Assembly (NCBI RefSeq): GCF_004682015.1
Contig: NZ_SMLM01000004.1
Span: 124,001-188,000, forward strand
DNA from: Ramlibacter henchirensis
GTDB taxonomy: Bacteria; Pseudomonadota; Gammaproteobacteria; Burkholderiales; Burkholderiaceae_C
Direction: 5' to 3'
DNA length: 64,000 bases
Both the position numbers and the translations under genes were made by a program. Positions 1,933-63,700 of this stretch are shown here, piece by piece (within the stretch, counting starts at the first letter, position 1; each line of letters starts with the position of its first letter). The notes under the pieces are model-generated. The model saw only the letters and a list, made by a program, of their open reading frames with translations, was not told the DNA's origin and did not search any database.

Positions 1933-2008
1933 TCCCCGATAGCTCAGTCGGTAGAGCGCCGGACTGTTAATCCGTAGGTCCCTGGTTCGAGCCCAGGTCG
2001 GGGAGCCA
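1933..2008 (+). tRNA. tRNA-Asn (anticodon GTT)
   Basis: A 76-base cloverleaf with acceptor TCCCCGA/TCGGGGA, an encoded GCCA end, D-arm AGCTCAGTCGGTAGAGC, anticodon loop CTGTTAA (GTT, Asn) and T-arm CCTGGTTCGAGCCCAGG. Its 3' 45 bases are the left attachment site of the island; because the incoming element carried an identical copy, the tRNA stays intact. Confidence 0.97.
1964..2008 (+). repeat. attL: 3' half of tRNA-Asn
   Basis: This 45-base segment, from the anticodon loop through CCA, recurs exactly at 48973-49017. The flanks diverge on both sides. Together with the adjacent integrase this marks the left end of an integrated element. Confidence 0.93.
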
Positions 2009-2085
2009 TAAGTTCTTGATCTGCCAGCGTTTTTCTCTGGACTCCGCTAGTCCGCCGGTTTTTCCGGCTTCTTTCGGAGACTTGA

Positions 2086-3096
2086 ATGAACGTTCAGCAG
2101 AATTTCGCGGTGGAGGCGATTCCCAGCGCCGACTCCGCAGCCATAGCCCAGCGTCTGAAGGCGCTGGCCGTGCGCCCTCAGTCACTGACTGTGCGCGAGT
2201 TGATCGACCGCTACATGGCGGTTTATGCCGGGGCCGACACAACGCGCGCCCAGCGACTCGCCGCCTGGTCATCTCTCATTGGTGATTTCACGCTCGAACA
2301 GGTCGACTCCGACCTCATGCACGCTGGCCGTGCCGAGCTTGCGAAACAGCCCTCGCTGACCTTCTACGGCCTGGATCACACAGGGCGCCGCATCTTCAAG
2401 GCGAAGCGCGGAGGGAAGCTGAAGACGCCAGCGACGGTGAATCGGTACATGGTGGCCGTGGCCGCCGTCTTCACCTGGGCCATAGATGAACGTCTGGCAC
2501 CGCGCGGGTGGGTGCATCCATGCCGCGGGATTAGGCGTTTGGAAGAGCCCGATGGACGAGTCCGCTTCCTCAGCGAGGCCGAACGAGACCGGCTTTTCGC
2601 GGAGTGCCGTCGCTCGAAATACCCGCGGCTTTATGCGCTTGCCCTCACGGCCATGCTCACCGGCGCCCGAAAAGGGGAGTTACTTAGCCTTCGTTGGCGC
2701 GACATAGACCTCGACAGAGGAGTCGCTCTTCTCGGAAAAACGAAGAATGGCGACAGGCGAGCCTTGGTGCTACTTCCGCAAGTCGTCGACGTTCTGCGTC
2801 CATTCTCAGGAGACGGGGAGCGGTATGTGTTTGGCTCCGTTCGCAGCCGGTGCCAGCTGCCGGTCGTGATCGACTCGCCGTGGCGTGATGCAGTTGCGCG
2901 TGCGCAGATCCAAAACTTCCGCTTCCACGATCTCCGTCACTGCTGCGCGTCGTACCTTGCCCAAGCTGGCACACCTCTGAATGTCATCGCGGAAGTGCTG
3001 GGACATCGCAAGTTAGACATGAGTCGGCGGTATGCACACCTGACCACTCAGTCAAAGGCACATGCGATGCGAAGTGCACTCGGAACCATCGCCTAG
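2086..3096 (+). CDS. Tyrosine-type site-specific integrase
   Basis: The 336-residue protein has a SAM-like core-binding region (about 35-150) and a catalytic domain with the conserved residues: Arg in TGARKGELLSLRW (about 193), HDLRHCC (about 280), His in LGHRKLD (about 305) and the Tyr nucleophile in RRYAHL (about 316). It would recombine island ends with the tRNA-Asn 3' end. The ATG has GGAG seven bases upstream. Position right after the attachment site is typical of island integrases. All catalytic residues are present, so it looks functional. Confidence 0.95.
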   Translation: MNVQQNFAVEAIPSADSAAIAQRLKALAVRPQSLTVRELIDRYMAVYAGADTTRAQRLAAWSSLIGDFTLEQVDSDLMHAGRAELAKQPSLTFYGLDHTGRRIFKAKRGGKLKTPATVNRYMVAVAAVFTWAIDERLAPRGWVHPCRGIRRLEEPDGRVRFLSEAERDRLFAECRRSKYPRLYALALTAMLTGARKGELLSLRWRDIDLDRGVALLGKTKNGDRRALVLLPQVVDVLRPFSGDGERYVFGSVRSRCQLPVVIDSPWRDAVARAQIQNFRFHDLRHCCASYLAQAGTPLNVIAEVLGHRKLDMSRRYAHLTTQSKAHAMRSALGTIA

Positions 3097-9123: not shown

Positions 9124-10035
9124 TCAGGGCACCCATGCATCAGCATCGGCGAGCGTATGGAACGCCACCCTCGACTTTTCGATGCCCATCCGAGCGGCGG
9201 CATCCTGCGTGTGTTGAGGGTTCCCGTAGTAGCTGAACTTCCACTGAGCAGCAGGCGAGACGTTCTTCCAGACCAGCTGCAGGTAGGGCCAGTCCACCTC
9301 GCCAAGGGAATGGCCCATGACAAGGACTGTCTCCACGCTTTTCAAGGCTGAGAAGAAGGCCTGATTCGCCTGGATGATCTTTTCGGTAGGCTTGAACGTC
9401 TTGGCGAAGTAGTCGTCAACAATGAAGTTTCCCTGCCACACCCGGGTGTCCATTGCCTCCGGGTCTGCCCGGTGGTTCAGGGAGTCAGCTTCCGTGCGCC
9501 TCCAGCCGTGACCAAGGACGATCTGGGATGTGGCATCCCGCGCTTGGCCGTGGAGGTGAAGCACTCGCGCGGGCGCGACGCCATACACGCTGGTCAGCGT
9601 GTCCGTGTAATTGAAGTTGAGGAACACGCCGCTCCTGTCGATCGGCAGGGGAGCGACTCCCGATTGGGTCAGCGGTGGGATTTGAAGCTGTCGAACCCAA
9701 TCCGCGAATCGGCTTCGCATCGTGCTGGAGATCTTTCTGATGATTCGATCCAGCTCGTACTCGTAATCATGGTGCCCGGCATCGCTCCAGTCCTCCGCAC
9801 CGTACGGCATCAAGAAGTCTGAAGCGTCTTCGATCGCGGTCGCAGCATCGAAGTGCGCGAGCCGCGCCTCGAACTCGTTCCAGAAGGAATCGTCGATGTA
9901 GAAATACTGGTCGACGGCGTCGTACGTTTCTGGATCGGCCTTTTCTAGGTACTTGCCAAAATCAGCGTACCTCGACCCGACCCCATGATGGAGGTCGAAG
10001 CCATTACCAATGATGTACAGGGTCTTGGTGGACAA
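9124..10035 (-). CDS. AbiH family abortive-infection protein
   Basis: The N-terminus MSTKTLYIIGNGFDLHHGV is the hallmark of AbiH (PF14253), known from lactococcal abortive infection. Further family features are FLNFNYTDTL (about 140), VLHLHGQ (about 160) and VLVMGHSLGEVDWPYL (about 240). Length (303) fits. The FNYT / LHGxxxD / GHSxGexD pattern is reminiscent of SIR2-like NAD-binding folds. It probably acts alone in the cytoplasm to stop growth after phage infection; the trigger is unknown. The gene stands by itself and ends convergently with the TOPRIM gene. Confidence 0.9.
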   Translation of the reverse strand: MSTKTLYIIGNGFDLHHGVGSRYADFGKYLEKADPETYDAVDQYFYIDDSFWNEFEARLAHFDAATAIEDASDFLMPYGAEDWSDAGHHDYEYELDRIIRKISSTMRSRFADWVRQLQIPPLTQSGVAPLPIDRSGVFLNFNYTDTLTSVYGVAPARVLHLHGQARDATSQIVLGHGWRRTEADSLNHRADPEAMDTRVWQGNFIVDDYFAKTFKPTEKIIQANQAFFSALKSVETVLVMGHSLGEVDWPYLQLVWKNVSPAAQWKFSYYGNPQHTQDAAARMGIEKSRVAFHTLADADAWVP

Positions 10036-35581: not shown

Positions 35582-35956
35582 GTGCAACGTACTTCTGACT
35601 TAGCCGATCTGCAGCAGCAGCTGCGCCAATTTGCAGCAGAGCGCGACTGGGAGCGTTTTCATTCACCGAAGAATCTGGCGATGGCGCTCGCCTGTGAGGC
35701 TGGGGAAGTTCTTGAGCACTTTCAATGGCTCTCAGAGTCCGAAAGCGACAGCCTGTCCGCGGAAGCGAAGCAGGCCGTCGGCGAAGAACTCGCAGATGTC
35801 TACCTGTATTTAGTCCGGCTCGCGGACCGCCTGTCCATTGATCTCCCAGCAGCCGCCCAGCAGAAGATCGATTTGAACGCGAAGAAGTACCCAGTCGAAA
35901 GGGCAAAGGGTAACGCCAAGAAGTACACCACATTCGGAATCGAGGGCGAGGAATGA
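35582..35956 (+). CDS. MazG-like nucleotide pyrophosphohydrolase
   Basis: A 124-residue all-helical protein with the MazG/dCTPase-type metal motifs EAGEVLEHFQW (about 39-49) and EELADVYLYLVRLAD (about 68-82), preceded by FHSPKNLAMALACE, as in short MazG-like enzymes that hydrolyse (d)NTPs to monophosphates. The start is GTG 35582. Its stop overlaps the mcrB-like ATG (ATGA), so it is the first gene of a three-gene operon. Depletion or cleaning of modified nucleotides alongside modification-dependent restriction would make sense but is inferred. Confidence 0.88.
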   Translation: MQRTSDLADLQQQLRQFAAERDWERFHSPKNLAMALACEAGEVLEHFQWLSESESDSLSAEAKQAVGEELADVYLYLVRLADRLSIDLPAAAQQKIDLNAKKYPVERAKGNAKKYTTFGIEGEE

Positions 35957-38490
35957 CTGAACCAACAAACATATTCATCTTCACAGCCGGGGACGCATCC
36001 GCTCGGGCTCACCTCGATGATTCGATCACAAAGTCCATTTCGCTTGAGACCGTTCTTGCTCACCTTCCGCCTGACACGCACTCGCAAATCAGTGAAATCA
36101 GCAAAGAGCACGGTCTCTATGCATGGGGCGCCATCCCGGGCCCTCAGAACAGACCACGTTGGGCTGCGATGCAAGAAGGCGATCTCGCGTTGTGCGTCTA
36201 CGACTCACGGTATCGGTACGTCGCCCAGGTCCTCAAGAAGTTTGAGAACGAAGACTTGGCTCGCGCGATCTGGGGACAAGACCCTGAAGGCCGAACTTGG
36301 AGCCTGATCTACTTCCTCACGGAACCGCAGAAGCTCGATGTCCCCCTGCTCGACCTGGCCGGCTACCTTCAACAGGGCTATATGGGGTTCACCCGCATTA
36401 GCGACGCGAAGTCCGCACGCATCAAGGCCGAATTCGGGTCGATCAACACGTTTGTGGAGCAGCAGCTCCTCAGCAGACCGATCGATGCGCATCCTTTGGA
36501 CAACATCACGAGACAAGATGTCCTCGATGCCTTGGCTCGCCTTGACGCGGGTGAGACCCACGGGTACGGGCCATCAACGGATTACAACCTGGTACACGAG
36601 GGTAAGCCGTATCCGCCTAAAGCAGCTGCAGGGATAGCGACTATGCGCACGTTGGGCCGGCCTCTGAGACCCAGCGAATTTTCCGCTGGTATGGGGACGA
36701 AGAACTTCCGCGTACTGGAGAAGCTGGGGTTCACCATTCAGCCTAAGCCTTCAGATGACCTGTTCTTCCTGATCCGCTCGAATGAAGACTCCCCGTATGA
36801 CGACGAGCTCGGCGTCCGCTATCACTTCACGAACACCGTTCCGAACCACAAGAAGCTGCTTGTTGGAGCACGCGTAGTTGTTGATTCGACAAGCTCAAAC
36901 GGGACCAGGCTACGCGGGCACGGCAACCTGGGGCCCGCGCAGTCGAAGGTGACGCCCTCTGGTTCGCAAGAGTTCGTGAGCGAGTTCACTTCCTGGACAC
37001 CGTTCTCCCCGCCAAAGCCAATTTCTGCTGCGCTTAAGGCGCAAATCGCTGCGCAGCCCGGGTACAACGTTCAGCACGCGATCCGCCCACTTAGCAGACG
37101 GCTGTTCGAGGCGATCACCGATGGAAAGCCGATTGACATGATCGACGAAGTCGTCCTGATTGGAACCACCAGAAGAACCGACAAGGAGCTCGACGAGTTT
37201 CAAGACTTGGTCAACAGAGAAGGAGGCCAGGCGTGGTGGTGGAGCTTCCCAATCAAGAGTGAGGCACAAAGCGCGCTCCCCCGCCCGTTCTACGTGTATT
37301 TGAATCGGGGCGGCGGAGTTTTCACTCACCGATGTCGTGTCGATGACTTCCGAACTAGCCAAGGCAACTCGGGGATGGAGTCTCCATGGCCAGAGAAGAC
37401 GCCTCTGCGCCTGAGAGGGGCGACACGTGCCGGCGATCGCCAGAGCGAGGTATTCAAGACTTGGCTGCTCGTGGGTTCGGTCGAAGAAATCAAGCCGGCT
37501 CTCGCGCTCTCAGATTTTGAGCCGGCAGCACCTTGGTCCAGCGACAACAACATCCTCAACCAGAGCACCTTCGGCTACGCGTACCGGAAGCAGAAGACAG
37601 GTGTGCCTACGCCCTCAAAGCCTTACACCGTCGACGACGCAATCGAAGACATCTTCCTCTCGAAGACCGACCTCGAGGAACTCATTGGACTTCTATCCAG
37701 TAAGAAGAACTTGATCCTCCAGGGGGCGCCTGGTACAGGCAAGACTTACCTGGCTAAGCGACTCGCCTTCGCTCTCATGGGCGAGGCCGCAGATGACCGC
37801 GTCACGATGGTGCAGTTCCACCAGTCGTACTCGTACGAGGACTTCATCGGGGGTTACCGTCCAACTGGCGAAGGGTTCGCATTCAAGTCTGGAGTGTTCT
37901 CGCGATTCTGCGCGGCTGCAACGCAACGGCCGACCGCGAAGTTCGTGTTTGTAATCGACGAGATCAACCGCGGCAATCTGAGCAAGATCCTTGGCGAAGT
38001 GATGCTGCTGATGGAGTCCGACAAGCGCGGACCCGGGTGGGCGATTCCACTCACCTACTCGACCGAGCAGGAGCCGCCTTTTTACATTCCCGAGAACGTG
38101 TACATCATCGGCTTGATGAATACCGCCGATCGGTCGCTCGCAATGGTCGACTACGCTCTTCGGCGGCGCTTCGCCTTCTGGACTTTGCTGCCTGCGTTCG
38201 AGTCTGCACGGTTCAAGGTGCACCTGCAGTCTAGGGAAATTCCTGAGGCTTTCACCAAGAAAATCGTTGACCGTATGTCCAAACTGAACGCGGCTATCGC
38301 AGCCGATAAAGACTTGGGCGCGGGATTTATGGTTGGACATAGCTTCTTCACCTCGCCCGACGAATCAGTCAGCGCGGACGCCTGGTACGCCAGGGTTATC
38401 CGCGCGGAAGTAGCACCATTGCTTGCGGAGTACTGGTTCGACAAGCCCGCGAGCTACATCGAAGATCGGGTCAACGAATTGCTGGCCTGA
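35953..38490 (+). CDS. McrB-like GTPase of a type IV restriction system
   Basis: The N-terminus (about 1-160) is EVE/PUA-like (IFIFTAGDASARAHLDDSI, WAAMQEGDLALCVYDS), a fold that reads modified bases. A second region (about 180-265; ITRQDVLDALARLDAGETHG, GKPYPPKAAAGIA) resembles the head domain of ScoMcrA. After another EVE-like segment (about 270-320) comes the McrB AAA+ GTPase: GAPGTGKTYLAKRL (about 591), FVIDEINRGN (about 665) and the McrB motif MNTADRSLAMVDYALRRRF (about 721). It should assemble as a ring, recognise modified DNA and drive McrC. It is coupled to MazG-like upstream and one base from McrC downstream. Confidence 0.92.
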   Translation: MTEPTNIFIFTAGDASARAHLDDSITKSISLETVLAHLPPDTHSQISEISKEHGLYAWGAIPGPQNRPRWAAMQEGDLALCVYDSRYRYVAQVLKKFENEDLARAIWGQDPEGRTWSLIYFLTEPQKLDVPLLDLAGYLQQGYMGFTRISDAKSARIKAEFGSINTFVEQQLLSRPIDAHPLDNITRQDVLDALARLDAGETHGYGPSTDYNLVHEGKPYPPKAAAGIATMRTLGRPLRPSEFSAGMGTKNFRVLEKLGFTIQPKPSDDLFFLIRSNEDSPYDDELGVRYHFTNTVPNHKKLLVGARVVVDSTSSNGTRLRGHGNLGPAQSKVTPSGSQEFVSEFTSWTPFSPPKPISAALKAQIAAQPGYNVQHAIRPLSRRLFEAITDGKPIDMIDEVVLIGTTRRTDKELDEFQDLVNREGGQAWWWSFPIKSEAQSALPRPFYVYLNRGGGVFTHRCRVDDFRTSQGNSGMESPWPEKTPLRLRGATRAGDRQSEVFKTWLLVGSVEEIKPALALSDFEPAAPWSSDNNILNQSTFGYAYRKQKTGVPTPSKPYTVDDAIEDIFLSKTDLEELIGLLSSKKNLILQGAPGTGKTYLAKRLAFALMGEAADDRVTMVQFHQSYSYEDFIGGYRPTGEGFAFKSGVFSRFCAAATQRPTAKFVFVIDEINRGNLSKILGEVMLLMESDKRGPGWAIPLTYSTEQEPPFYIPENVYIIGLMNTADRSLAMVDYALRRRFAFWTLLPAFESARFKVHLQSREIPEAFTKKIVDRMSKLNAAIAADKDLGAGFMVGHSFFTSPDESVSADAWYARVIRAEVAPLLAEYWFDKPASYIEDRVNELLA

Positions 38491-38491
38491 C

Positions 38492-39544
38492 ATGATTCCG
38501 ATCAGGAATATCTACTTCATGCTCTCTTACGCATGGAACCGGCTCGACCAAGCAGAGCTCGTAGATGTCAGCACGGAACAGATCGAAACCCTTCCGGACC
38601 TCTTGGCCAGTGTTCTATTGCGGGGGGTTCAACGCTGCCTCAAGGACGGGATCGATCGTGGGTACAAAGAGCAGCTGCAAGAGGGCACATTTGTCCGTGG
38701 CCGCCTGGACCTTGGGGTGTCCGTGAGGCGTCTGCTGCTGAAGCAAGCCCGTGCAGCCTGCCACGTCGACGAGTTGACCAGCAACATCCTGGCCAATCAG
38801 ATCGTTAAGACAACTATGCAGCAGCTAACCCGCTTGCCTGCTCTTGACCCAGATCTCCGTCATGGCCTTGCCTTGCTTGTGCGGCGTCTACCAGACGTTG
38901 AAGCGATACGTCTCAGCCGAAGGGACTTTGATCGGGTTCAGCTGCACTCTAATAATAGTTTCTACAAATTCCTCATCGACATCTGCCGCGTCGTTCATGA
39001 CGGGCTACTAGTCGACTCTGCCAACGGGGAATACTCCTTCAGAAGCTTCATCGAAGACGAGCACGCCATGAGGCGCCTCTTCCAGCATTTCGTCTCGAAC
39101 CTTCTTCGACATCACCAGGATCACTACGAAGTCGGCAACGACCGGTTCAGGTGGAACATCGTTGCGCCTGATTCTCAGAGTGATCAGCTCATGCCCATGA
39201 TGGAGACGGACATAACTCTCCGCGCGCCAGGGCACGTTGTAGTGATCGACACGAAGTTCTCCCAATCGGTATTTCAGCAGAGATTTCAGAAGCAGAAGCT
39301 CAAGTCCGAACACCTTTATCAGCTGTTCTCGTACCTGAAGAACCTTGAGTTCAAGGGCGGCGACTACACGAACGCTGATGGGATCCTTCTCTACCCTACT
39401 ACCGAGAAGGCCGTGGATTTCACGACAACCGTGCAAGGCCATAGGATGTCAGTGCGGACGGTCGATCTAAGTCAAGCTCCCCAGGGGATTCGCGATGACC
39501 TCTTGGCGCTCGCGAAGCCCGTGGCTACTCTAGGCAGTGCCTGA
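38492..39544 (+). CDS. McrC-like nuclease subunit
   Basis: The 350-residue protein begins MIPIRNIYFMLSYAWNRLD, the usual McrC start, one base after the McrB stop. The PD-(D/E)XK nuclease core is at METDITLR (about 236) and VVVIDTKFS (about 249). McrC cleaves DNA when activated by McrB translocation. The region VRGRLDLGVSVRRLL is also family-typical. The longer in-frame start at 38423 would overlap mcrB and is rejected. The operon MazG-like/McrB/McrC appears intact. Confidence 0.92.
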   Translation: MIPIRNIYFMLSYAWNRLDQAELVDVSTEQIETLPDLLASVLLRGVQRCLKDGIDRGYKEQLQEGTFVRGRLDLGVSVRRLLLKQARAACHVDELTSNILANQIVKTTMQQLTRLPALDPDLRHGLALLVRRLPDVEAIRLSRRDFDRVQLHSNNSFYKFLIDICRVVHDGLLVDSANGEYSFRSFIEDEHAMRRLFQHFVSNLLRHHQDHYEVGNDRFRWNIVAPDSQSDQLMPMMETDITLRAPGHVVVIDTKFSQSVFQQRFQKQKLKSEHLYQLFSYLKNLEFKGGDYTNADGILLYPTTEKAVDFTTTVQGHRMSVRTVDLSQAPQGIRDDLLALAKPVATLGSA

Positions 39545-44743: not shown

Positions 44744-45025
44744 GATGGCTCCCGAGATGCGAGAGAAGTGTAGCCCCGCGAGAGCGTGTCATCTACCTCT
44801 GCATAACGGGTGCGGTGCGGCTGTGACTCTTGCGGCGAGACAGTCGACCGCTGCTGCCTCGACGGCTTTTTGATTCGTTGTCGCGACTCGCCCCTCGGTA
44901 GCGATTAACTCATCGATTTCCAAGCAACTTTGAGTAGAACAACATGAACCCTCTTTACCGGGCCGCCAACAATGAGCAGCATGTGGGGACGATGCCGCTT
45001 CGGCCCGGCAGTACAGGAGGTGACA

Positions 45026-45683
45026 ATGGAGGTAGTGGTAATGACCCTGGGCACGGCGGCCACAGGCGTGTTGGCGGCTCAAGTCCGAACAATGCCACTG
45101 GACCTAGCGGGCAGCTTGAGAAAACTGTTACTTTGGGCATCGCGAGAGCAGCGCGTGACGACCCGGGGCAATTTCGTGTGCTACTGACTCGCGAGGACGA
45201 TGCGAACCTAGGCTTAACCGACCGGGCATCCGTAGCCAGACTCAGCGGAGCAGTCGCCTTTGTGTCGGTCCACTGCAACGGATCTAAGGACCCAACCGTA
45301 CAGCGCAGCTCCGCGTACATTCATGAGCGCGGGTCAGCAGAATCAATGCGGTTGGCAGAGGCCGTACTGAGTCGTGTTCGCGACGTAACTGGGTCACGGC
45401 CTCGACAGGTCCAACGTGCAGCGTGTTCGGCGTACTGCAGCCCGAGAGCCACTTGCCCGAGACAGCCGCGTGTTTGGTGGAGGTGAGCTACATCACCAAC
45501 CCACCTGAGGACCGAAGACTTGCAAGAGACGACTACCGCCGCCAATTGGCAGCCGCAATTCTCAATGGTATCTCTGACTTCCTAAGCGCAGCTGCACCGG
45601 AGGGCGTACAGCTTGAATCCCCATCAGACTTGCCTCTCGTGCCTGGCACAGAGGATGCAGCCGAGGTGGCGTTGGAGGAGTGA
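45026..45683 (+). pseudogene. N-acetylmuramoyl-L-alanine amidase with two frameshifts
   Basis: ATG 45026 after AGGAGGTGACA begins MEVVVM; one base is missing before the expected DPGHGGHRRVGGSSPNNATG, which continues in another frame through LTREDDANLGLTDRASVARL and FVSVHCNGS. Near 45420 a second shift leads to VFGVLQPESHLPETAACLVE and VSYITNPPEDRRLARDDYRR. These are the zinc ligands and substrate loop of Amidase_3 enzymes, which cleave peptidoglycan side chains. As written the gene cannot make a full protein, so it is a recent pseudogene or carries sequencing errors. Confidence 0.75.
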
Positions 45684-46141: not shown

Positions 46142-47233
46142 TCAAGATACCCGCCGATTTGCAATCTCCTTAGCAACTTCATCGGCAATCTTGTCGTACA
46201 AGGCCTCCTGCTCAATAGGCGTCATACCCAAAAGAGGCGTCGCTGGGTCATTGGCCGCTTGAAATGTGCTCAAGATCGGATCCCGCCGGAAACCGCAGGG
46301 CTTAACAATTACAGGAAGAATCCTTAGCCCGTTAGAGTCGGCCTTAACCAGCAGGGGAGGCAATTCGTTGTTCACAATGAAGTCAGAGGCCAGGAAATCT
46401 GCGCTTATGAGTAATACGGCTATTACTGCTTCATTGAGATTCTGCTCGATTTCCGCCTTCCACTTGTCACCTGTCCGCAGCCTCTTGTCTGACCAGCAAA
46501 CAACCGTGTTGGCCCTTTCGAGGGGCTTCAGATGGACCAGCAGCCTCTCAACACACTGAGTGTCCACATGGCTGTACGAAATGAAGAGCTTCGGGCGCTC
46601 ATTTCGCTTCACCTCTGAAATCACAAATGGCTGAGCAGCTTCAGCCAAGATTGTGGCGACATTTCGGTCTACCCTTTGTGCCTCCCGCTCCTCTACCTGC
46701 GATCCCGCCGCGCGCTTGGTTCCATGCGCCAAAAAGTCGATCACATCCACTCTAGTGACGCCCTGCTGATGCAAGTAGTAGACTGCGTGCGAGTCCTTTT
46801 CTCCGAAGACGGCTACGAGCAGGTCCACACAGAGTACTTGGCGCCCCTCCTGGTTCGCCGCTTGCACTTGCATGATCGCTCTCTGCACGACTCGCTGGAA
46901 ACCTAGTGTGGGCTGGGTATCAACTTCCTCATTGGCGTCGACTACTGGCGTGTGTTCATCAATGAACAAGCCGAGTCGCGACTTCAGTTCATCTAAGTCA
47001 GCACCACAGGCAGTCAAAGCAACCTTGGAAGAGGGCCCATCGACGAGACCGAACACTAAATGTTCGACAGTGATGAACTCATGGCGACGATCTCGTGCGT
47101 TGACGAAAGCAATGTGCAGCATCACCTCCACTTCCTCGGAGATCAGTGGAGGCTGCTTCTTGTCTTTCGCGGCCTTCGCTCCTGTGGGGGCAGGTGCAGC
47201 GACGCCCCGCTTCTTTCGTGGTGTAGTAGTCAT
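46142..47233 (-). CDS. ClpA N-domain fused to a TIR domain
   Basis: Residues about 29-174 (from the start at 47233) are a near-complete ClpA N-terminal double Clp repeat: LISEEVEVMLHIAFVNARDR, RHEFITVEHL, DTQPTLGFQRVVQRA, FGEKDSHAVYYLHQQGVTRV, ending HGTKR just where ClpA's first AAA+ domain would begin. There is no ATPase. After a linker, residues about 213-320 are a TIR_2-type domain: RPKLFISYSHVD, GDKWKAEIEQNL with the candidate catalytic Glu, and LLISADFLASDF. Bacterial TIR domains often degrade or convert NAD+ on sensing infection. The ClpA part would bind ClpS, adaptors or N-degron-like substrates. The start is uncertain (alternative 47263 or upstream). It is downstream of the EVE-like gene. 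Confidence 0.85.
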   Translation of the reverse strand: MTTTPRKKRGVAAPAPTGAKAAKDKKQPPLISEEVEVMLHIAFVNARDRRHEFITVEHLVFGLVDGPSSKVALTACGADLDELKSRLGLFIDEHTPVVDANEEVDTQPTLGFQRVVQRAIMQVQAANQEGRQVLCVDLLVAVFGEKDSHAVYYLHQQGVTRVDVIDFLAHGTKRAAGSQVEEREAQRVDRNVATILAEAAQPFVISEVKRNERPKLFISYSHVDTQCVERLLVHLKPLERANTVVCWSDKRLRTGDKWKAEIEQNLNEAVIAVLLISADFLASDFIVNNELPPLLVKADSNGLRILPVIVKPCGFRRDPILSTFQAANDPATPLLGMTPIEQEALYDKIADEVAKEIANRRVS

Positions 47234-47363
47234 CTTGTCGTTGTAGAGAGGCTGTCCGCACATTAAGTGCGTGTCGGTGACTTCGATGCATTGCGCATGG
47301 TTTGAAAGCCAATCGCCTGCAGAATTGATGGTTCGGAGGGAGCTGCCCGCACGTGCAAGTTGA

Positions 47364-48455
47364 CTATCCGAGATCCGGGTCATCTTCCTGCGGCAACTGC
47401 GCGGGTTCGTTCTCGCGCTTAATTTTCGCTTTCCGGATCCGCTTGGGCTTTGGCGGATCGATCTTCGAAGTGTCAACCCTCGGGATGTCGACGCGGAGCC
47501 TTTTTTGCACGCGCGAGAAGTCGAAGTCTTTGACTATTTTGATCACGACATCCCAGATCTTCTGTCGCGTGTGCGTGTCTAGCAGGCCGTCTGTTTTGAA
47601 GAATTTGAGGTCACCTCCGAAGAGCATGACGTAGATCACCGCACACCACAGTAAGGACTGAGAGTCCATTGCTACCTGGGCCCAAATGGTTCCCGGAGAC
47701 ATGAACTCCGCCTTTGTCGTGAGGTTCAAGTCCTCACGATGGCGCTTCGGTGTGTGGCCGACTTCAAGCCCTTCCGCTAAGTCGCGTGCAGTTCTCTCAA
47801 TTGCGCTGAGCATCGAAAAGAACTGCGACAGTGAATAGTTGTCCAGTTCCAACGTCTGCTTGATGTTCGCGGAGAGGTACAGATGGTCTCTGTAGGCGAA
47901 GCATGGGTACAGAAGGTGGTATATCGAGTCCCAGTAGTCATCGATGTTGAAGACAGTCTGATGCGCCAGCAGAGTCAGCTGAAGCGCAGCTGGCACCTGC
48001 GTTCGTAGAAGCCGGGGCCCCCAGATGACCTTTCGGCGCAACTCGTGCTCCAGCGCGTAACTCCTGCCGTTCTTGTCGTATATGTAGAGGGATTCACGCG
48101 AGATAAAGGCATCACCCGCTACACGGCCGACTGAGATGCTGCCGGAGTTCAGAGTGACAATCAGGTCTCCCTCGGAGATACCGGAGATGAATGTGCGAGC
48201 CTGATTCGCATGAGAGGTGAGCGATCCTTGCGAACGTTCTGAATCTGCCCGGAGCAGTAGCGCTTCGAGGTTTGGAAGGGTCCCCTGACTGATTGCTCCC
48301 TGTCGGAGTCCTAGCGGGTTCAGGTGGCCTATCGCCATCAGCCCGTGCTCGCGGAAATGTCCGACGTACGCGCCGCCTGAAGCACGCACCACCCAGATGC
48401 GCTCGCCTTCCGGACGTACCGGCAGGAACTCTGGCTCGAAGTCAGTCAAAGTCAC
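47364..48455 (-). CDS. EVE/PUA-like domain protein, putative sensor of the TIR unit
   Basis: The first 120 residues have the look of the N-terminal domain of Mrr-type restriction proteins: RIWVVRASGGAYVGHFREHG, AIGHL, then NQARTFISGISEGDLIVTLN and VGRVAGDAF, a PUA/EVE-like fold that can read modified bases. The rest is helical (about 180-320) with a basic tail (PPKPKRIRKAKIKRE). GTG 48455 was chosen because GGGAGGGG lies four bases upstream; ATG 48485 is the alternative. It ends 130 bases before the ClpA-N/TIR gene on the same strand. A sensor role is inferred. Confidence 0.6.
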   Translation of the reverse strand: MTLTDFEPEFLPVRPEGERIWVVRASGGAYVGHFREHGLMAIGHLNPLGLRQGAISQGTLPNLEALLLRADSERSQGSLTSHANQARTFISGISEGDLIVTLNSGSISVGRVAGDAFISRESLYIYDKNGRSYALEHELRRKVIWGPRLLRTQVPAALQLTLLAHQTVFNIDDYWDSIYHLLYPCFAYRDHLYLSANIKQTLELDNYSLSQFFSMLSAIERTARDLAEGLEVGHTPKRHREDLNLTTKAEFMSPGTIWAQVAMDSQSLLWCAVIYVMLFGGDLKFFKTDGLLDTHTRQKIWDVVIKIVKDFDFSRVQKRLRVDIPRVDTSKIDPPKPKRIRKAKIKRENEPAQLPQEDDPDLG

Positions 48456-48972
48456 TCTTCCCCTCCCGCGCTGTTGAGCTGCCATGATGATAGTCAACAG
48501 CTATCCGGCCGTCACGCGCGCCGCATCGGTGGTCGACTGCGCGACCGTCGTGGGAATCAGTACTTCGGTAGGTGTAGTGGTTCCTCGCGGCAACGTCTCA
48601 GCCGCAGAGGAAACGTCCAACCTGACTGTTCTCAGCGTCGCTAAGCGTGCCTAGGGGGGAGGCTCTCATAGCCAGAACCAAACGCGTCACAGTGTCTTTC
48701 GCAGTGGCTGGGGCCCAGACCATATGTTCGCGGGCAGGAGGTCTGAAGACTGGCCGTCCCAGGGTCGCCGCGGCAGCGGCCTAGTGAGGGGCAGCTAGGC
48801 AAACCGCAAGTTCTTTCGCAGGATGCGGCCTCTGAGTTCGTTTGTTGACGTGCCTAGCTGCCGCGCCTTTTCCCCGCCGGAGGCCGATTCACCAGGGGCG
48901 CTTCGAGCCTGGCGTGGTGTATTCTGGTGTCTTGCGGAGTCCGGCGGCAGCGGACTTGTGTTCGAACCTGGC
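48456..48972. other. Right end of the island, no supported gene
   Basis: About 500 bases between the EVE-like gene and attR. A 54-codon plus frame from 48487 is open but unsupported. The promoter of the minus-strand TIR unit should lie at the left side. Confidence 0.4.
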
Positions 48973-49017
48973 CTGTTAATCCGTAGGTCCCTGGTTCGAG
49001 CCCAGGTCGGGGAGCCA
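48973..49017 (+). repeat. attR: duplicate of the tRNA-Asn 3' end
   Basis: Exact 45-base copy of 1964-2008, from the anticodon loop to CCA. No 5' half of a tRNA precedes it, so it is not a functional tRNA gene but the right attachment site. Confidence 0.93.
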
Positions 49018-49025
49018 AAAAATCA

Positions 49026-54779: not shown

Positions 54780-54783
<4 letters not shown>

Positions 54784-57700
54784 GCGAAACCCCGCAGCGG
54801 ATCCGGCGCGATGCGCGTGGCCGGCGGCAGCGCCTCGTCGTCCTCGTCCTTGTCGTCACCGGAACGCGCGAGCACCGGCAGCGGATCCAGCAGGCGCCAC
54901 GCGGGCAGCGCCGACAGGTAGCTTCCGAGCAGCACGCCGCCGCGGATCAGCCACAGCACGTAGATCAGCGAGACACCCAGCGACAGGCCGGCCACGGTGA
55001 TGGTGGTCGTGCGATCGAGGTTGAACTCCTCCTGCAGCTGGCGGCGCAGCCGGTTCAGTTCTTCCAGGAAGGCGGCGGAACGCAAGGCCAGCTGGAGCTG
55101 CTCCGCCGAGACCGGCGCGAAGGCGCCTTGCAGGCCGGCGAAGCCCGTGACGAGGAAGTCGCCCGCGAAGTCGAGCGTGGCGGGAACCAGCGTGATCTGG
55201 GTAACGTCGCTTCCGTCGAGCACGCGGCCGGTGGCGGTCGCGTGCTGCGGTTGCGGCGGCGCGAAGCCCATGATCGAGCCGAGCACGTTGGCGCCGGCCA
55301 GATCGTCTCGCAGGCTGCCGCCGAGGGCCTCGATCGACCCGACGACGCGACCTGGCGTGCTGGCGGGTTCACTGCCCGGTGCGGCAGCCGGGAGCTGCGG
55401 GTCCGTCAGCGGCGGCTGCGCAGATGCGGGAGCGGGCATCGGGCCGATCCCGCCGCCGGCGTCGATCGCCTGGCTGCCGACCTCGATGCGCAGCGCGCCG
55501 GACACGCGGTCGATGCCGCCGCCGGCCGTGCCGCCGTCGTCGCGGACGGTCCAGGCCAGCTCGCCCATGCTGCCGCTGCTGCCCGCGGCGGCGACGAACT
55601 GCATCGAACGGAGATCGGCAAGCGTGTACGTCCCGCCCACGACAACCGGCGTGCTGCCGTCGGCCAGCAGGACGGTGCCCAGCGCGGAGGAAGGCAGCGC
55701 GGTGATGACCACGGTGAGCGCCTGGCCCGCCTCGTCGAAACCTCCGCCCGGTCCATAGGCCAGCTGGCCCAATCCGAGCGACCCGGCGCTACCCTCGGCG
55801 ACTTCAGTGACGGCTGCAGAGCCGTCGAGTCGCACCGGCGCATCGTTGACGGCCTGCACCGTCACGCTCGCGGAGGCGATGCCGCTGCTGAAGGCGGAGC
55901 TGCCGCCGTTGACGCGCGTATCCGCCCGCGTGGTGCCGGCCGTGCCGCCGCTGAAGTCCCAGGCCCGGAAGCCCAGGCCGCTTGCCTGGCCATTCCAGTT
56001 CGCGCCGGGCACGAAGCGCAGCTGCGCGTCGCCCGCCAGGAGTTCGGCATCGGCTGCGCTGACGCCGCTGAAGGCCGACCAGCTCGTCCCGCCGTCGCGG
56101 CTGAATTCCCAGTGCCCGCCGCTGCCCTCGGCCGCGATCACGGCGATCCCGGTGCGGCCGAGCGGATCGAAGGCCTGGCCCGCGAGCAGGTCCGCGACCC
56201 GCATGGCGCCGCTGGACTGCGCGTCCTCGGCGATGGCCGGCAAGGCGTTGGCGCCTTGCAGCGTCGGGGCCTGGTTGACGACGTTGATGTAGACGCGTTC
56301 CGTCAACGCCGCTGCGCCGGGGCCGTCGTCGCGCACGCTGAAGGTGAACGTGCCGGCGCCGCTGCTGACGGTCGAAGACGCGATGAACTGCAGCGTGCGC
56401 AGTTCGGCCAGCGTGTAGCTCGCGCCAATCGTTACGGGCGTGCGGCCATCGGCGAGCACGAGCGTGCCGATCCCGGACGGAAGACCGGTGACGGTGACCA
56501 GCAGCGCCTGGGCCGCCTCGTCCGCGCCTCCACCCGGGCTATACGACAGCCCGCCAAGTCCGAGCGGCATCGCGGCGCTGCCCTCGACCACGCTGAGCCG
56601 CGAGGGTGCGGCCGAAGTGCGCACGGGCGCGTCGTTGACCGGCGTCACGCGCACGTCGAGCGTGGCGCGCGCGCCGGTGCTGGTCGTGTACTCCACCTGC
56701 GGAGCGGCGCCGTTCCAGTGGGCGGCCGGCGTAAAGGTGTAGGCCCCGCTCCCCTGCAGCGTGAAGCTGCCGATGCCGGCCAGCACCGCGGTCGCGCCGG
56801 CGGCGTAGCTGGTCGCGCCGATGGAGAAGCTTGCGACGGCCAGTGCGTTATCCACGTCGCTGTCGTTGGCCAGCACGTTGCCGGTCACGACCGTGTCCTC
56901 GTCGCCGACTGCGCTGTCGGCGCCGAGCACCGAGGCGTCGTCGACCGCGGCCACGACGATGGCCAGCGTGCTCACGGCACCGGTGTTTGTCGTGTAGCTG
57001 ACCTGCGGCAGCGTGCCGTTCCAGTTCGACACGGGTGTGAAGAGATAGCTGCCGTCGGATGCCAACGTGAACGTGCCCACGCCCGCCAGGTTCACGGTCG
57101 AGCCGGCGGCGTAGGTGTTGCCCGCGATCCCGAAGCTGGCCACCTGGAGTGCGGAATCGGAGTCGGTGTCGTTGGCGAGGACGTTGCCCGTCGCGACGGT
57201 GTCCTCCGTTCCCGCCGCTGTGTCCGCAGTGGCGGACGTGGCGTCGTCCTGCGCCACGAGGGTGATGGCGACCGTGCTCGTGGCGCCGGTGTTGGTGGTG
57301 TAGCCGATCAGCGGCAGGCTGCCGTTCCAGTTCGCCACCGGGGTGAACAGGTAATCGCCGCCGGCGCTCAGCGAGAAGGAGCCGACCCCCGCGATCAGCA
57401 CCGTGCTGCCCGCCGTGTGCGCCGAGCCATTCACCTGGAACGAGGCCACGGTGACCACGGAGTCAGCATCGGTGTCGTTGGAAAGCACGTTGCCAGTGAC
57501 CGCGTTGTCCTCAGGGCCTGTGGCCGTATCGGCATTTGCCACCGTCGGGTCGCCGACCGGTGTCACCGTGAGGTCCAGCGTGCTGCTGGCGCCGGTGCTG
57601 GTTGTGTAGGTGACCTGCGGGACGGCGCCGTTCCAGTTGGCTGCCGGCGTGAAGCTGAACGCTCCGTCCAGGCCCAGCGTGAAGCTGCCCACACCTGCGA

Positions 57701-60700
57701 TCATGGCCGTCGCGCCCGCTGCGTACCGGGTGCCGGCCACCTCGAAGCTGGTCACCTGGAGGGGCGAATCCACGTCTGTGTCGTTCACGAGGACGTTGCC
57801 GGCTGCGACGCTGTCCTCCGCAATGGTGAGCGCATCAGCGACCAGAACCGAGGCGTCGTCCACTGCGGACACCGTGATCGTGAGCGTGCCGATGGCGCCC
57901 GTGTCGGTCGTGTAGCTCACCACGGGCACGCTGCCGTTCCAGTTCGCCAGCGGAGTGAAGCTGAAGCCACCATCGGCCAACATCGTGATGCTGCCCACTC
58001 CGGAAATCGTGGCCGTCTGCCCGGCAGCGTAGGTCGTAGCGCCGACCTGGAACGTCGTGACCTGCAGCGCCCCGTCCGCGTCGCTGTCGTTGGTCAGCAC
58101 GTTGCCGGTGGCGGCGTTGTCCTCGGCCGTGGTCACCACGTCCGCTCCGATCACGGTGGCGTCGTCGACGGGGTTCACGGTGAGCGACAGCGTGCTGCTG
58201 GCGCCACTGTTCGTCGTGTAGGTGACCTGCGGGACGGCACCGTGCCAGTTGGCTGCGGGCGTGAAGATGTAAGCGCCGTTCGCGGCAAGCGTGAAGCTGC
58301 CCACGCCGGCGATCGCGACCGTCGAACCGGCAGCATGCGTCGTGCCACCGATCTCGAAGCTCGCCACCTGCAGCGGCGAGTCGACGTCGCTGTCGTTCGC
58401 CAGCACGTTGCCGGTGCCGGTGGTGTCTTCATCAACGATGTTCGTCTCGGGCACGAGCGCGCTCGCGTCATCCACAGCAGCAACGGTGAGGTCCAGCGTG
58501 CTGCTCGCACCGGTGCTGGTCGTGTACGTCAGCTGCGGGAGCGCCCCGTTCCAGTCCGCCACCGGCGTGAAGGTGTAGCTGCCATCGGCCCGCAGCGTGA
58601 GGCTTCCCATGCCGGAGAGGCTGGCCGTCGCGCCGGCGGCGTAGGAGCTCCCGCCGATGCTGAAGCCCGTCACCTGCAGCGCGTCGTCCACGTCGGTGTC
58701 GTTGGCCAGGACGTTGCCGGTGGCGACGGTGTCCTCGTCGACGAGCAGCGTGTCCGCAGTGGCGCCCGTGGCGTCATCGACAGCATCCACGGTGATGTCC
58801 AGCGTGCTGCTGGCGCCCGTGTTGGTGGTGTACGTGAGCTGAGGCAGCGTGCCGTTCCAGTTCGCGGCCGGCGTGAACGTGTAGATGCCATCGGCGGCCA
58901 GCGTGAAGCTGCCCCCGGCAACGCTGGCCGTCGCGCCCGCTGCGTACAGCGTGCCGCCGATCGAGAAGCTGCTGACCTGCAGCAGGTTGTCCACGTCCAC
59001 GTCGTTGGCCAGCACGTTCCCGGTGGCCACGGTGTCCTCGTCCACGGTGCCCGCATCGGCGGTGGTGCTCGTGGCGTCGTCCACCGCGCCGACCGTGATG
59101 TCCAGCGTCCCCGTGGCGCCGGTGCTCGTGACGTAGCTGACCTGCGGGACCGTGCCGTTCCAGTCGGCCGCCGGGGTGAAGACATAGTCGCCGTTGGCGG
59201 CCAGGCTGAAACTGCCGATGCCGGGCACGTTTACCGACGCCCCTGCGGCGTAGCTGGTGCCGCCAATGCTGAAGCCCGCGACCTGCAGCGCGTTGTCGAC
59301 GTCGCTGTCGTTGGCCAGGACGTTGCCCGAGGCGACGCCGTCTTCCACGGTGGCGCCGACGTCCGCCCCGATGACCGTCGCGTCATCCACCGCCGTCACG
59401 GTGATCGTGACCGTCCCCGTGGCCGTGCCGCCCTGGCCGTCGCTCAGCGTGTACGTGAACGTCGCAGTGCCATGGAAGTTCGCCGTCGGCGTGAAGACGA
59501 TGTTGCCGCCCACGAGCGCAACCGTGCCACCGCCGCCCGCGGTCACGCCCGCGATGGCCAGCACGCCGCCGTCGCCGTCCGCATCATTGCCCAGCAGATC
59601 GGAAGGCAGGAGGGTCAACGGCTGGTCTTCCGGCGTCGCGACTGCGTCCGCGCCGGTCACGGGCAGGTCGTTCACGGAGGCAACCTGGATGGTGACGGTG
59701 GCGCTCGACGTGCCGCCCTGCCCGTCCTCGATCGTGTAGCTGAAGGTGCCGTCGCCGTGGAAGCCAGCGTCCGGCGTGAACACGATGCTGCCGCCACTGA
59801 GAGTGACCGTGCCGCCCGATCCGCTGGTCACGCTGGTGATGGTGAGCGTCTCGCCGTCGAACGCGAGATCGTTGATGAGGAGCTCGGCAGGCGTGATCGT
59901 CAGCGGCTGGTCTTCGGTGGCGGACAGCGTGTCGTCCACGGCGACCGGCGCATCGTCCACGGCGTCGAGCTGGAGGATGACGGTGCCGGTGGAAACGCCG
60001 CCGTTGCCGTCCGACACGGTGTAGCTGAAGCTGGCCGGCCCGTTGAAGTTGGCCGTGGGGGTGAAGCTGATCGTCCCGCCCGACAGCGTCACGCTGCCGC
60101 CCGCGATGGCGGTCACACCGGTGATCGTGAGGGCCTGGCCCTCCACGTCGCTGTCGTTCGCCAGCAGGTCGGCCACCCCGATAGCGACGGGCGTGTCCTC
60201 GGTGCCGGTCAGCAGGTCGTCACCGGCGGTGGGTGCATCGTTCACCGCGCCGACGGCGACCACCACCTGCACGGTGGCGGTGCCGCCGTTTCCGTCGGAG
60301 ACCGTGTAGTAGAAGCTCGCCGTGCCGTTGAAGTTGCTGTCCGGCGTGAACACGACGTTGCCGTCGACGATGTTCACCTGCCCGCCGGCGCCGTCGGCCA
60401 CGGCGACGATGCTCAGTGTGTCGTTCTCGATGTCGCTGTCGTTGGCCAGCAGCGCGCCCGGGGTGAACGCGAGCGGCGTGTCCTCGTCGGTCGCCGCCGT
60501 CTCCCCCACGACCACCGGCGCGTCGTTCACTGGCGCCACCACGATCGTCACGCCGGCGCTGGAGGATCCGCCGCGTCCATCCGAGACGGTGTAGGTGAAG
60601 CCGGCGGTGCCCGCGTAGTTCGCGTCCGGAGTGAAGACGATCGTGTTCCCGGAGAGGGTCACCACGCCGCCGTAGGCGTTGGCGACGCCGGTGATCGTCA

Positions 60701-63700
60701 GGGCATCGTTCTCCGTGTCCTCGTCGTTGTCCAGCAGCGTGGCCGTGTCGATGACCAGCGGCGTGTCCTCGGCCGCCGCCAGCACGTCGGCGTGACCGAG
60801 CGGCGCGTCGTTCACCGGCGCGAGGGTCACCCGCACGGTGCCGGTGGCCGTGCCGCCCTGGCCGTCGCTCACGGTGTAGGTGAACGTGGCCGTGCCGTCG
60901 GAGTCGGCGTCGGGCGTGAACACGATGTTCTCGCCCGACATCGCCACCGTTCCGCCGGTGCCGCTCGTGACGCCGACGATGGCCAGCGTGTCGAGGTCCA
61001 GGTCGGCATCGTTGGCCAGCAGGGCCGCCGGGGTGATCACCACCAGCTGGTCTTCCGTTCCGGTAACGGTGTCATCCGTCGCGACCGGCGCGTCGTTGGC
61101 CGGGGTCACGACCACGTCGACGATGGCCGTGGCCGTGCCGCCGTGGCCGTCGGAGACCGTGTAGCTGAATCGCGCCGTGCCGTTGAAGTCGGCTGCCGGG
61201 GTGAACACGACGTTGCCGCCGACGATCTGCACCGTTCCGCCGGTCAACCCGGTGACGCCAGTGATCGCGAGCGAATCGTTCTCGGTGTCGCTGTCGTTGC
61301 CCAGCAGCGCCGCAGGTGTGAGCGTCAGCGGCGTGTCCTCGCCGGTGGTGAACGTGTCGTCCGCCGCCACCGGCGGGTCGTTCACCGCGGCGAGGTTCAC
61401 GGTCACGACCGCCGTCGCGGTGCCGCCCATGCCGTCCGAGACCGTGTAGCTGAAGGTCGCCGGGCCGTTGTGGTTGGCCGTGGGCGTGAAAACGATCGTG
61501 CTGCCCGACAGCGTCACGGTTCCGCCCGAGCCATTCGCCACGCCGGTGATGACCACGCCGTCGCCATCCACGTCACTGTCGTTATCGATCAGCAGCGACG
61601 CGTCGATCGTCAGCGGCTGGTCTTCCGTGCCTGCGATGGCGTCAGCCGTCGCCACGGGGGCATCGTTCACGGCGGCGAGCACCACGCTCACCGTGGCGGT
61701 CGTGCTGCCGCCGCGCCCGTCGGACACTGTGTAGTCGAAGCTCCCGGTGCCGCTGGCATTGGCCGCGGGCGTGAAGACGATGTTGCCGTCCACGATGGCG
61801 ACGGTTCCGCCGCTGCGGTTGGCCACGCCCGTGATGGCCAGCGCGTCGCCGTCGATGTCGCTGTCGTTGCCCAGCAGCGTCGCCGGCGCGATGGTGAGGA
61901 CCTGGTCCTCCGTCCCCGCCACGCTGTCGGCACCCGCGAGCGGCGCATCGTTCACCGCCGCGACGTTGACCGTCACTGTGCCGACGGTGCTGCCTCCGCG
62001 CCCGTCGCTCACCGTGTAGCTGAAGCGGGCAGGCCCGTTGAAGTCCGCGGCCGGCGTGAAGGTGATGGTGCTGCCCGAAAGGCTGACCGTGCCGCCCAGG
62101 ATCGCGGAGACGCCGGTGATCGAAGGCGAGTCGAACAGGTCCGGGTCGGAGTCGTTCGCCAGCAGCGTGGAGGCGGCGATCACCTTCGGCGTGTCCTCCG
62201 TCGCTGCCACCGTGTCGGCGCCGGCGGTCGGCGGCGAGTTGAGCAGCACGATGTTGACGTGCACCGTGGCGGTCGCGAAACCGCCCCGCCCGTCGCTCAC
62301 CGTGTACTCGAAGCTGGCCGGGCCGGTGTAGAGGGGCTGCGCCACGAACAGCACCGTATTCCCGAGCAGCGTCACCGTGCAGTGATCCGACGAGCCCACG
62401 GAGACGACCGTCAGCGTGTCGCCCTCGAGGTCGAAATCGTTGGCCAGCAGAGCCGCCGTGTTGATGGTCAGATTGAGGGTGCCGGCAGTGAGGTTGTCGT
62501 CGTTGGCCACCGGCGCGTCGTTCGCGGGCGCGACGTTCACGGTCACAGAGCCCGTCGACTCCGCGCCGCTCGGGTCCTTCACCGTGTACGTGAAGGTCGC
62601 GGCGCCGTTGAAGTCGGCCTGCGGCGTGAAGACGATGTTGCCGCCGGAGAGCGCCACGGTCCCGCCCGTGCCGCTGGTGACACCGGTGAACGTCAGCGCG
62701 TCGCCTTCGAGGTCGCTGTCGTTGAGCAGCAGCGTGCCGGGGGCGATCACCAGCGGCTGGTCTTCAGTGCCGGATACAGAGTCGGCCGCGGTGACCGGCG
62801 CGTCGTTGACGGGGTTGACCGTGATCTGCAGCGACTGCGCCAGCGTGTCCGCGCCGCCGCCGTTGTCCTTCACCTGGAAGCCGAAGGTCGCGGTCCCGAC
62901 GGCGTTGCTCGCGGTGACGAAGCGCATGCCGCGCAGTTCCTGCAGCGTGTACTCGCCCGTCGTGACGTCGGTGCCGTCCGCGAGCGTGATGCGGCCCAGG
63001 CTCGCAGGCGGCAGGGCCGCCACGATGAAGGTCAGGCCCTGCCCCGCCTCATCGGCGCCGCCGCCGGGGCCATAGTTCACCGCGCCGAGGCCGAGTCCGG
63101 TGCTGCCGCTGTCCTCGGCGACCACCAGGTCGGACACGACGCCGCCCACGGGAGCGTCGTTCACCGGGACCACCGTGATGCTGGTCACGGCGGTCGCCGT
63201 GCTGAACGCAGTGCCGGCGCCACTGAGCGTCGAGTTGCCCAGCCCGCCCGCGCTGCCCGAGGTGCCGTCCCAGGCGGCGAAGCCCAGCGTCGCCGTGCCG
63301 GTCCAGTCCGCAGCCGGCACGAACCGAACGCGCGTCAGCGCGTCGGCCAGCAGCAGCCGCGCGCTGCCCGCGGACGGGCTGCCGAAAGCGAGCCAGGTGG
63401 TGCCACCGTCCCTCGTGTACTGCCAGCTGCCGTGGCTGTTGTCCACGCTGACGACGGCGATGCCGCGCGTGCCCGTGGGGTCGTCCACCTGCCCCGCGAC
63501 AAGGTCGGCCACCAGCGTCCCGGCATCCGCGGTGTCCTCCTGGACCGGCGCCATCGGGTTCGCGCCGTTGAGCACCGGTGCGCGGTTGGTGACGGTGAGC
63601 CTGAGCGTGTGGTTCAGCCGGTCCGTGCCGCCGTTGTCGGTCCCGCCGTTGTCCAGCACCTCGAAGGCCACGGTCGCCACGCCCGGCGTCGCATTGAGGC

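Follow-up and report, generated by a model that had tools for sequence, protein, structure and literature searches.

A ClpA N-domain joined to a TIR domain in a defence-bearing mobile island: a candidate single-gene immune effector with a possible built-in bait

The fusion gene and the island that carries it

Near the right end of an integrative mobile island in the window (the whole 64-kb stretch of DNA that was analysed, within which all positions are counted) there is a minus-strand gene whose product, P0001, consists of a ClpA-type N-domain, here called the head, followed by a TIR domain (Table 1). The original prediction was that the two domains are fused without AAA+ modules, and this is confirmed by Pfam, by the fold and by the single open frame. 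No AAA+ family was matched in Pfam up to E 10, and the match of P0001 to NCBIfam PRK11034 comprises only positions 2-161 of 758. The N-terminal extensions of the nearest relatives are comparable, and those of most other rows in a 31-row alignment are short or absent.

Table 1. Features of the island and of the fusion gene, in order along the window
Feature	Position	Strand	Remarks
tRNA-Asn	1933..2008	+	insertion target of the island
Left direct repeat, attL-like	1961..2011	+	3' half of tRNA-Asn
Island integrase	2086..3096	+	Phage_integrase, E 3.5e-28
AbiH abortive-infection protein	9124..10035	-	E 3.7e-67
McrB-like subunit	35953..38490	+	335.8 bits, below NCBIfam cut-off 637
McrC	38423..39544	+	342.2 bits, over NCBIfam cut-off 338
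Clp_N-TIR fusion gene (P0001)	46142..47233	-	363 aa
TIR domain	46154..46597	-	residues 213-360
Codon of Glu290	46364..46366	-	putative catalytic Glu
Linker	46598..46708	-	residues 176-212, pLDDT low in part
ClpA-type N-domain	46709..47146	-	residues 30-175, both Clp_N repeats
N-terminal extension	47147..47233	-	residues 1-29, basic, low-confidence
EVE-like protein gene	47364..48455	-	GTG start; alternative ATG at 48485
Right direct repeat, attR-like	48970..49020	+	96% identical

The C-terminal half of P0001 has a TIR fold. Alignment to AbTIR places Glu290 at the conserved catalytic-type position, which we take to be that of the catalytic residue among the TIR glutamates. Together with Trp247, Asp249, Gly255 and Trp258 it is kept in 112 of 112 fusions (best-listed homologues plus the window protein), so that a degenerate TIR domain is ruled out and the key residues, including the putative catalytic Glu, are intact. 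The Clp_N-TIR protein is probably an NAD-destroying immune enzyme. The closest other TIR domains bear different heads (e.g., HTH in L006 and L018), so that heads can be exchanged on this TIR.

The island is bounded by a 51-nt repeat of the 3' half of tRNA-Asn, present at both ends, and the integrase gene adjoins the tRNA. G+C content between the repeats is 0.53-0.65, as against about 0.70 rightward. The fusion gene and an EVE-like gene are the last recognised genes before the right repeat. The att-like repeats, the integrase, AbiH and McrBC bear out the predicted location of the fusion gene in a mobile island with defence genes, which also holds Ku, NERD and MazG-like genes. Genes for an alginate-lyase-type protein and a glycosyltransferase, neither with an evident role in defence, are found on the island as well.

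The genomic context of the fusion is known from two loci, the window and a Polaromonas MAG. In this second host one contig stops after residue 228 of the gene and another starts at residue 229, and we infer that the two contig ends are halves of one fusion gene. The copy starts 18 bp after a HerA-like helicase gene; on the side of the other contig end there are short frames, a TPR protein and then, about 5 kb further, clpA. GC3 of the copy is 0.20 and 0.26 (at its two ends) and that of other genes on the first contig (L101) is 0.40-0.69; because of its low GC3 the Polaromonas copy looks imported. The ClpA N-domain of the window genome is 95% identical to that of the Polaromonas MAG, which makes the bacterium that carries the window probably a member of the Burkholderiales. 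The predicted defence neighbourhood is present in the island of the window, with AbiH and McrBC; the Polaromonas copy is surrounded by housekeeping-looking genes, with no visible defence island.

Relatives of the fusion and the origin of their heads

A homologue search of 5.8 billion proteins gave 3212 matches up to E 0.001; the best 120 were listed, in order of their likeness to the window protein. Profiles identified both Clp_N and TIR in 111 of these 120 best-listed homologues (112 proteins counting the window protein); the fusion belongs to a wide family. A chance or misread fusion is ruled out, since the gene is one open frame and the architecture is common to these 111 homologues. Short contigs from jgi, lgn and ena account for most of the listed matches, which suggests that these are metagenomic.

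Whole-genome searches, which a gene split at contig ends would escape, detected a full-length fusion in the window's genome and in none of the others sampled: 58 congeners, 398 further members of the order, 368 of the class and 397 of the phylum (overlapping samples). The species-representative genomes, which may omit the window's own genome, gave no match when scanned with the single window protein; a scan with an alignment retained 80 of 81 loci, and no open frame in any of them contained both domains. Among plasmids 71 records were matched, none covering 80% of the query, and the 30 listed of these have Clp_N alone, TIR alone or, in H1, ClpA plus a little more. Two phage records matched, both annotated clpA, and viral contigs contained no match for the fusion or for the EVE-like family. 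The order of G480, a genome whose ClpA best matches the fusion protein P0070, had the fusion in 0 of 296 genomes, in a search with no positive control. A Clp_N frame at a contig end of MAG G460, at first sight a third fusion, has the head of an ordinary ClpA; its C-terminal part lies beyond the contig end.

The head of P0001 is 46-48% identical to E. coli ClpA and up to 59% identical to nearer ClpA, and it is derived from a ClpA N-domain. This domain, conserved within ClpA, evolves fast in the fusions. ClpA-type N-domains (n=58) average 65.1% identity; mean pairwise identity among 95 fusions is 45.0% for the heads and 66.5% for the TIRs, and of 4465 fusion pairs only 2 have heads that resemble each other more closely than their TIRs do. 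Fast change is in keeping with a recognition part under conflict, and also with relaxed constraint. The head is not simply decaying, because some of its sites, Gln113, Arg118, Glu145 and Leu154 among them, are kept in at least 98% of the fusions.

The TIR domains of the fusions form one clade, which was recovered in a quick tree with the closest other TIRs (47 against 60, SH-aLRT 100) and again with 15 fusions against 26 other TIRs (bootstrap/SH-aLRT 100/99). By contrast, a single clade of all heads was rejected when 45 fusion rows were analysed together with 37 further rows (AU p 0.0015, lnL 64.6 lower). This 82-row tree was built from 45 fusion heads, 33 rows labelled ClpA and 4 Clp_N-ClpS rows, all chosen by hand and representing 45 of 96 fusion heads, after near-identical rows had been thinned (147 kept); the heads came together in 0 of 200 bootstrap trees, in a bootstrap that had not settled. 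A single clade was rejected again with 35 fusion rows, which like all the tested head groups were hand-chosen, against 59 ClpA rows (AU p 0.016, lnL 65.3 lower), only 5 of which had been retrieved because they best matched a fusion of the P0070 type, the others not having been picked by likeness to P0070. The other ClpA sets comprised 29 rows (contact residues), 33 rows (82-row tree) and 58 rows (rate of change and first pairwise tests). The ClpA rows include the G460 row, L091, which is cut by the contig end, and the sets of 33 and 58 include Methylomonas L130, in which Clp_N is fused to another domain.

The best candidate for a separately derived head, on less firm ground, is that of a group formed by P0070, P0080, P0033 and P0071. 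At 17 diagnostic columns the P0070 group has 32 other-order and 7 home states and the window group 9 and 79, the columns being defined from 28 window-order and 26 other-order ClpA, 23 of these 26 fetched as best matches to P0070. At 14 columns defined from 28 home-order and 28 other-order ClpA (20 newly taken by handle number, 5 best P0070 matches) the P0070 group has 24 other-order against 7 home states and the window group 5 against 65; the five other fusion groups show mostly home states. When the other orders were represented by E. coli, Aeromonas and Thiorhodococcus only, 20 columns gave 24 other-order and 20 home states in the P0070 group, and 3 and 102 in the window group.

Tests of the window and P0070 groups as one clade gave AU p 0.005 with 58 ClpA rows that include 23 best P0070 matches; the clade was not rejected with 32 ClpA rows fetched before those matches (p 0.12), and p was 0.18 with ClpA rows taken mostly by handle number, or 0.32 once the closest row was removed. 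Placing the P0070 group with the P0030 group gave p 0.024 and with the P0034 group p 0.036, in both cases with biased rows that include best P0070 matches. For the window group the values were 0.20 with the P0049 group, 0.64 with the P0034 group and 0.46 with the P0083 group, and the P0030 and P0031 groups already fall into a single clade with it. Thus, separate capture is not proved for any named pair of groups. Between the window and P0070 groups mean identity is 68.7% for the TIR and 42.0% for the head, and the two are together in the TIR tree (98/94); an alternative in which the window group joins the P0030 group and the P0070 group stays outside gave p 0.156 and was not rejected.

ClpA is closer to the head than other fusions are in 73 of 95 cases, which does not tell one capture from several, given the slow evolution of ClpA. 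The tests on all heads and the diagnostic columns make it the better reading that this one TIR lineage bears heads from two or more ClpA sources. Replacement of the head would fit, as would two fusions formed from closely related TIRs. The relatives suggest that the front half has been taken from ClpA more than once, as a built-in bait would predict. The original view that a housekeeping domain had been captured is supported, and capture probably occurred more than once within the family.

A possible built-in bait and other explanations

We tentatively favour, with somewhat less than even confidence, a single-gene TIR immune effector in which the ClpA N-domain serves as an integrated bait or decoy. 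The head would be a copy of the surface on which ClpA receives its adaptor ClpS and its substrates, and which, hypothetically, is also bound by phage proteins that attack or subvert ClpAP. Binding of a phage factor to the head would bring several copies of the protein together; the TIR domains of the clustered copies would then associate and either use up NAD+ or generate an ADP-ribose signal, and the infected cell would halt phage growth. Such a head must resemble the ClpA of its host; as islands carry the TIR lineage from host to host, the head would therefore occasionally be replaced by a fresh copy from a ClpA gene. That one TIR lineage takes its ClpA bait for anti-ClpAP or anti-ClpS phage proteins afresh from different lineages, matching the host ClpA, seems somewhat unlikely; if true, it would make the adaptor-docking head of ClpA a common and previously unnoticed phage target. 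The setting of the Polaromonas copy counts against the decoy reading, as does the literature, since no phage inhibitor of the ClpA N-domain was found in open-licence PMC papers.

The main rival, in our judgement an unlikely one, is a sensor in which the head docks ClpS in the manner of ClpA. The TIR would be activated, or else restrained, by ClpS that carries N-degron fragments or that has been freed by a block of ClpAP. The ClpS-contact residues of E. coli ClpA are E23, which pairs with ClpS Lys84, E28, T81 and R86 (PMC12493166). All four are invariant among 29 ClpA N-domains. In 110 fusion heads E28 is present in 105, T81 in 102 and R86 in 107, the E28/T81/R86 triad being whole in 94; all four residues are found in the window protein and in 61 of the 110. 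On the other hand, E23 is a Glu in only 65 heads and is replaced by a non-Glu residue in 45. Across 43 ClpA-invariant sites retention in the fusions has a mean of 0.75 and a median of 0.83; the four ClpS sites average 0.86, which is not significantly better than random draws of four ClpA-invariant sites (p 0.164), and leaving out E23, a post hoc choice made after seeing the data, gives p 0.040. From this retention of contact residues, ClpS docking is plausible for most members, the window protein included. The genome has one ClpS match, directly upstream of clpA, although this host ClpS has, by eye, Ala in place of Glu82 of what we take to be the E. coli ClpS sequence. A ClpS sensor would also be in keeping with the existence of double ClpA N-domain-ClpS fusions: the 9 of the 120 best-listed homologues that have Clp_N without TIR each carry a Pfam ClpS annotation and two ClpA-type N-domains, and in the single one scanned the C-terminal end is ClpS. 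Sensing of ClpS or N-degrons, as originally proposed, thus gains from the three contact residues that are mostly kept and loses from the four taken together and from E23.

Stress signalling in place of defence, with the proteostasis load of ClpAP coupled to NAD+ metabolism without any phage, is improbable. The head is a housekeeping domain and the Polaromonas copy lies amid apparent housekeeping genes, as this explanation would have it; the patchy presence seen in the congener, order, class and phylum samples, and the position of the fusion in an integrative island with defence genes, argue against it.

We regard as very improbable a two-gene system in which the EVE-like protein would recognise modified DNA and regulate the TIR protein. 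The EVE-like gene is 130 bp upstream of the fusion on the same strand, with no minus-strand terminator-like site in the gap, and its product has an EVE/YTH-like fold and matches a PADLOC candidate defence family (for its C-terminal half, structure searches gave nothing firm). It had been put forward as the partner of the fusion, and a conserved pairing is not supported. In Polaromonas the HerA-like helicase gene stands upstream of the fusion in place of the EVE-like gene. Among listed homologues, moreover, the contigs of at least 2.5 kb with a fusion (49 of 111) and those with an EVE homologue (28 of 48) have no size in common, in a comparison that is indirect because each cluster is represented in the lists by its longest contig alone; the one size common to both lists, 1935, is too short for both genes.

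Least probable of all is a Thoeris-like arrangement, in which a cyclic ADP-ribose signal from the TIR would be read by a distinct effector of the ThsA type: the best PADLOC match of the P0001 TIR is indeed the ThsB model PDLC00420 (E 1.3e-21, over the TIR part only), but no candidate receptor was recognised beside the fusion and the genome gave no STALD (PF18185) match at E 10, against a weak control (7 of 14 control genomes matched, none reaching the cut-off).

Comparison with known systems

To our knowledge, it is clear in only a few cases how bacterial TIR effectors recognise infection. Thoeris ThsB TIRs sense a phage capsid protein (PMC11312562). The fusion resembles bacterial TIR effectors such as ThsB in its TIR fold and conserved catalytic-type Glu (PMC11312562), and differs from ThsB in that its head is a captured ClpA N-domain, that it is a single gene and that no STALD-type ThsA was found (weak control). 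ClpN repeats on vWA proteins form a rare variant of the FtsH ternary conflict systems, which gives ClpN a precedent among predicted conflict systems of bacteria; these are, however, multi-gene MoxR-vWA systems, with no TIR fusion in the relevant passages of the source (PMC7159879). Mycobacterial ClpC2 is a partial homologue of ClpC1 that detects and sequesters an antibiotic directed at ClpC1 (PMC10030653). It is similar to the fusion in being a partial AAA+ chaperone homologue that keeps a binding domain, in this case as both sensor and sponge of a toxin directed at the chaperone; unlike the effector proposed here, it deals with an antibiotic and not with phage, acts on its own promoter, has no TIR effector and is related to ClpC and not to ClpA.

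With ClpA itself the fusion shares the fold and sequence of the N-domain, but it is not ClpA because it is without the two AAA+ modules. The parts are of known kinds, and their combination was not found in print: in line with the original prediction, the open-licence PMC literature yielded no described system with a Clp_N-TIR fusion. Since the host machine that supplied the head is identified, and its partner (ClpS), structure and contact residues are known, the trigger can be tested directly in E. coli.

A further parallel in concept is provided by the integrated decoys of plant NLRs. Like the fusion, these receptors bear a copy of a host domain that is thought to be targeted by pathogens (PMC4759884), whereas plant NLRs are eukaryotic and built on an NB-LRR core and the fusion has only a TIR. 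If ClpA heads were indeed recruited repeatedly, ClpAP/ClpS would emerge as contested ground between phages and bacteria, and the Clp_N-TIR family would be a bacterial counterpart of the plant NLR integrated decoys.

Clp docking heads outside the fusion

On a Methylomonas plasmid (L132), one gene joins a ClpA N-domain to a C-terminal domain and AAA+ modules are absent. The adjoining gene encodes a ClpX zinc finger, again with AAA+ absent, followed by the same C-terminal domain, and a third gene nearby combines a Tim44-like domain with it. This shared domain was detected in 96 proteins, 5 of them from this plasmid, and the hosts named are mostly methanotrophs. The Pfam accessions found on these proteins are those that we take to be DUF1566, LRR, Sel1/TPR, MORN or FGE-sulfatase. 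The plasmid genes are a second capture of Clp docking heads, separate from the Clp_N-TIR fusion.

Among the best 120 of 3212 homologues of the fusion listed, nine proteins of ~400 aa (P0091, P0096, P0108, P0110, P0111, P0113, P0118, P0119 and P0120) each contain two ClpA-type N-domains. They carry a Pfam annotation of ClpS, AAA+ not being among the annotations listed, and in the 4 whose sequences were read the N-domains are in tandem and precede ClpS.

Phage relatives of the EVE-like family

For the family of the EVE-like protein (P0002) encoded upstream of the fusion, there is a match at E 2.6e-25 to PHROG 10226, a phage protein family of unknown function; therefore, phages hold relatives. 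A scan for the family in viral contigs found none.

Other genes of the island and its right flank

Coordinates of the features (window positions, except for L132, where they count within the piece)
Feature	Location	Strand	Remarks
Three neighbouring genes on the Methylomonas plasmid, L132 (CP157007.1 26000-41000)	6934-7815, 6321-6944, 8000-8803	-	
PHROG 6544 match (function unknown)	5452-6516	-	E 1.9e-44
Radical-SAM-like protein	15485-16594	-	adjoins glycosyltransferase
Protein-glutaminase domain, PF18626	43778-44743	-	E 1e-24; within island, close to fusion
N-acetylmuramoyl-L-alanine amidase	44944-45683	+	two overlapping frames
Giant repetitive open frame	54780-63974	-	3064 aa; immediately right of island

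The repeats of the giant frame measure about 285 and 306 nt. The amidase gene is split over its two frames and seemingly broken. The PHROG 6544 relative also matches HNH endonuclease, less strongly. The Radical-SAM-like protein, so judged by eye, shows a weak match to viperin (PADLOC pVip, E 1.4e-6) and is probably not a viperin.
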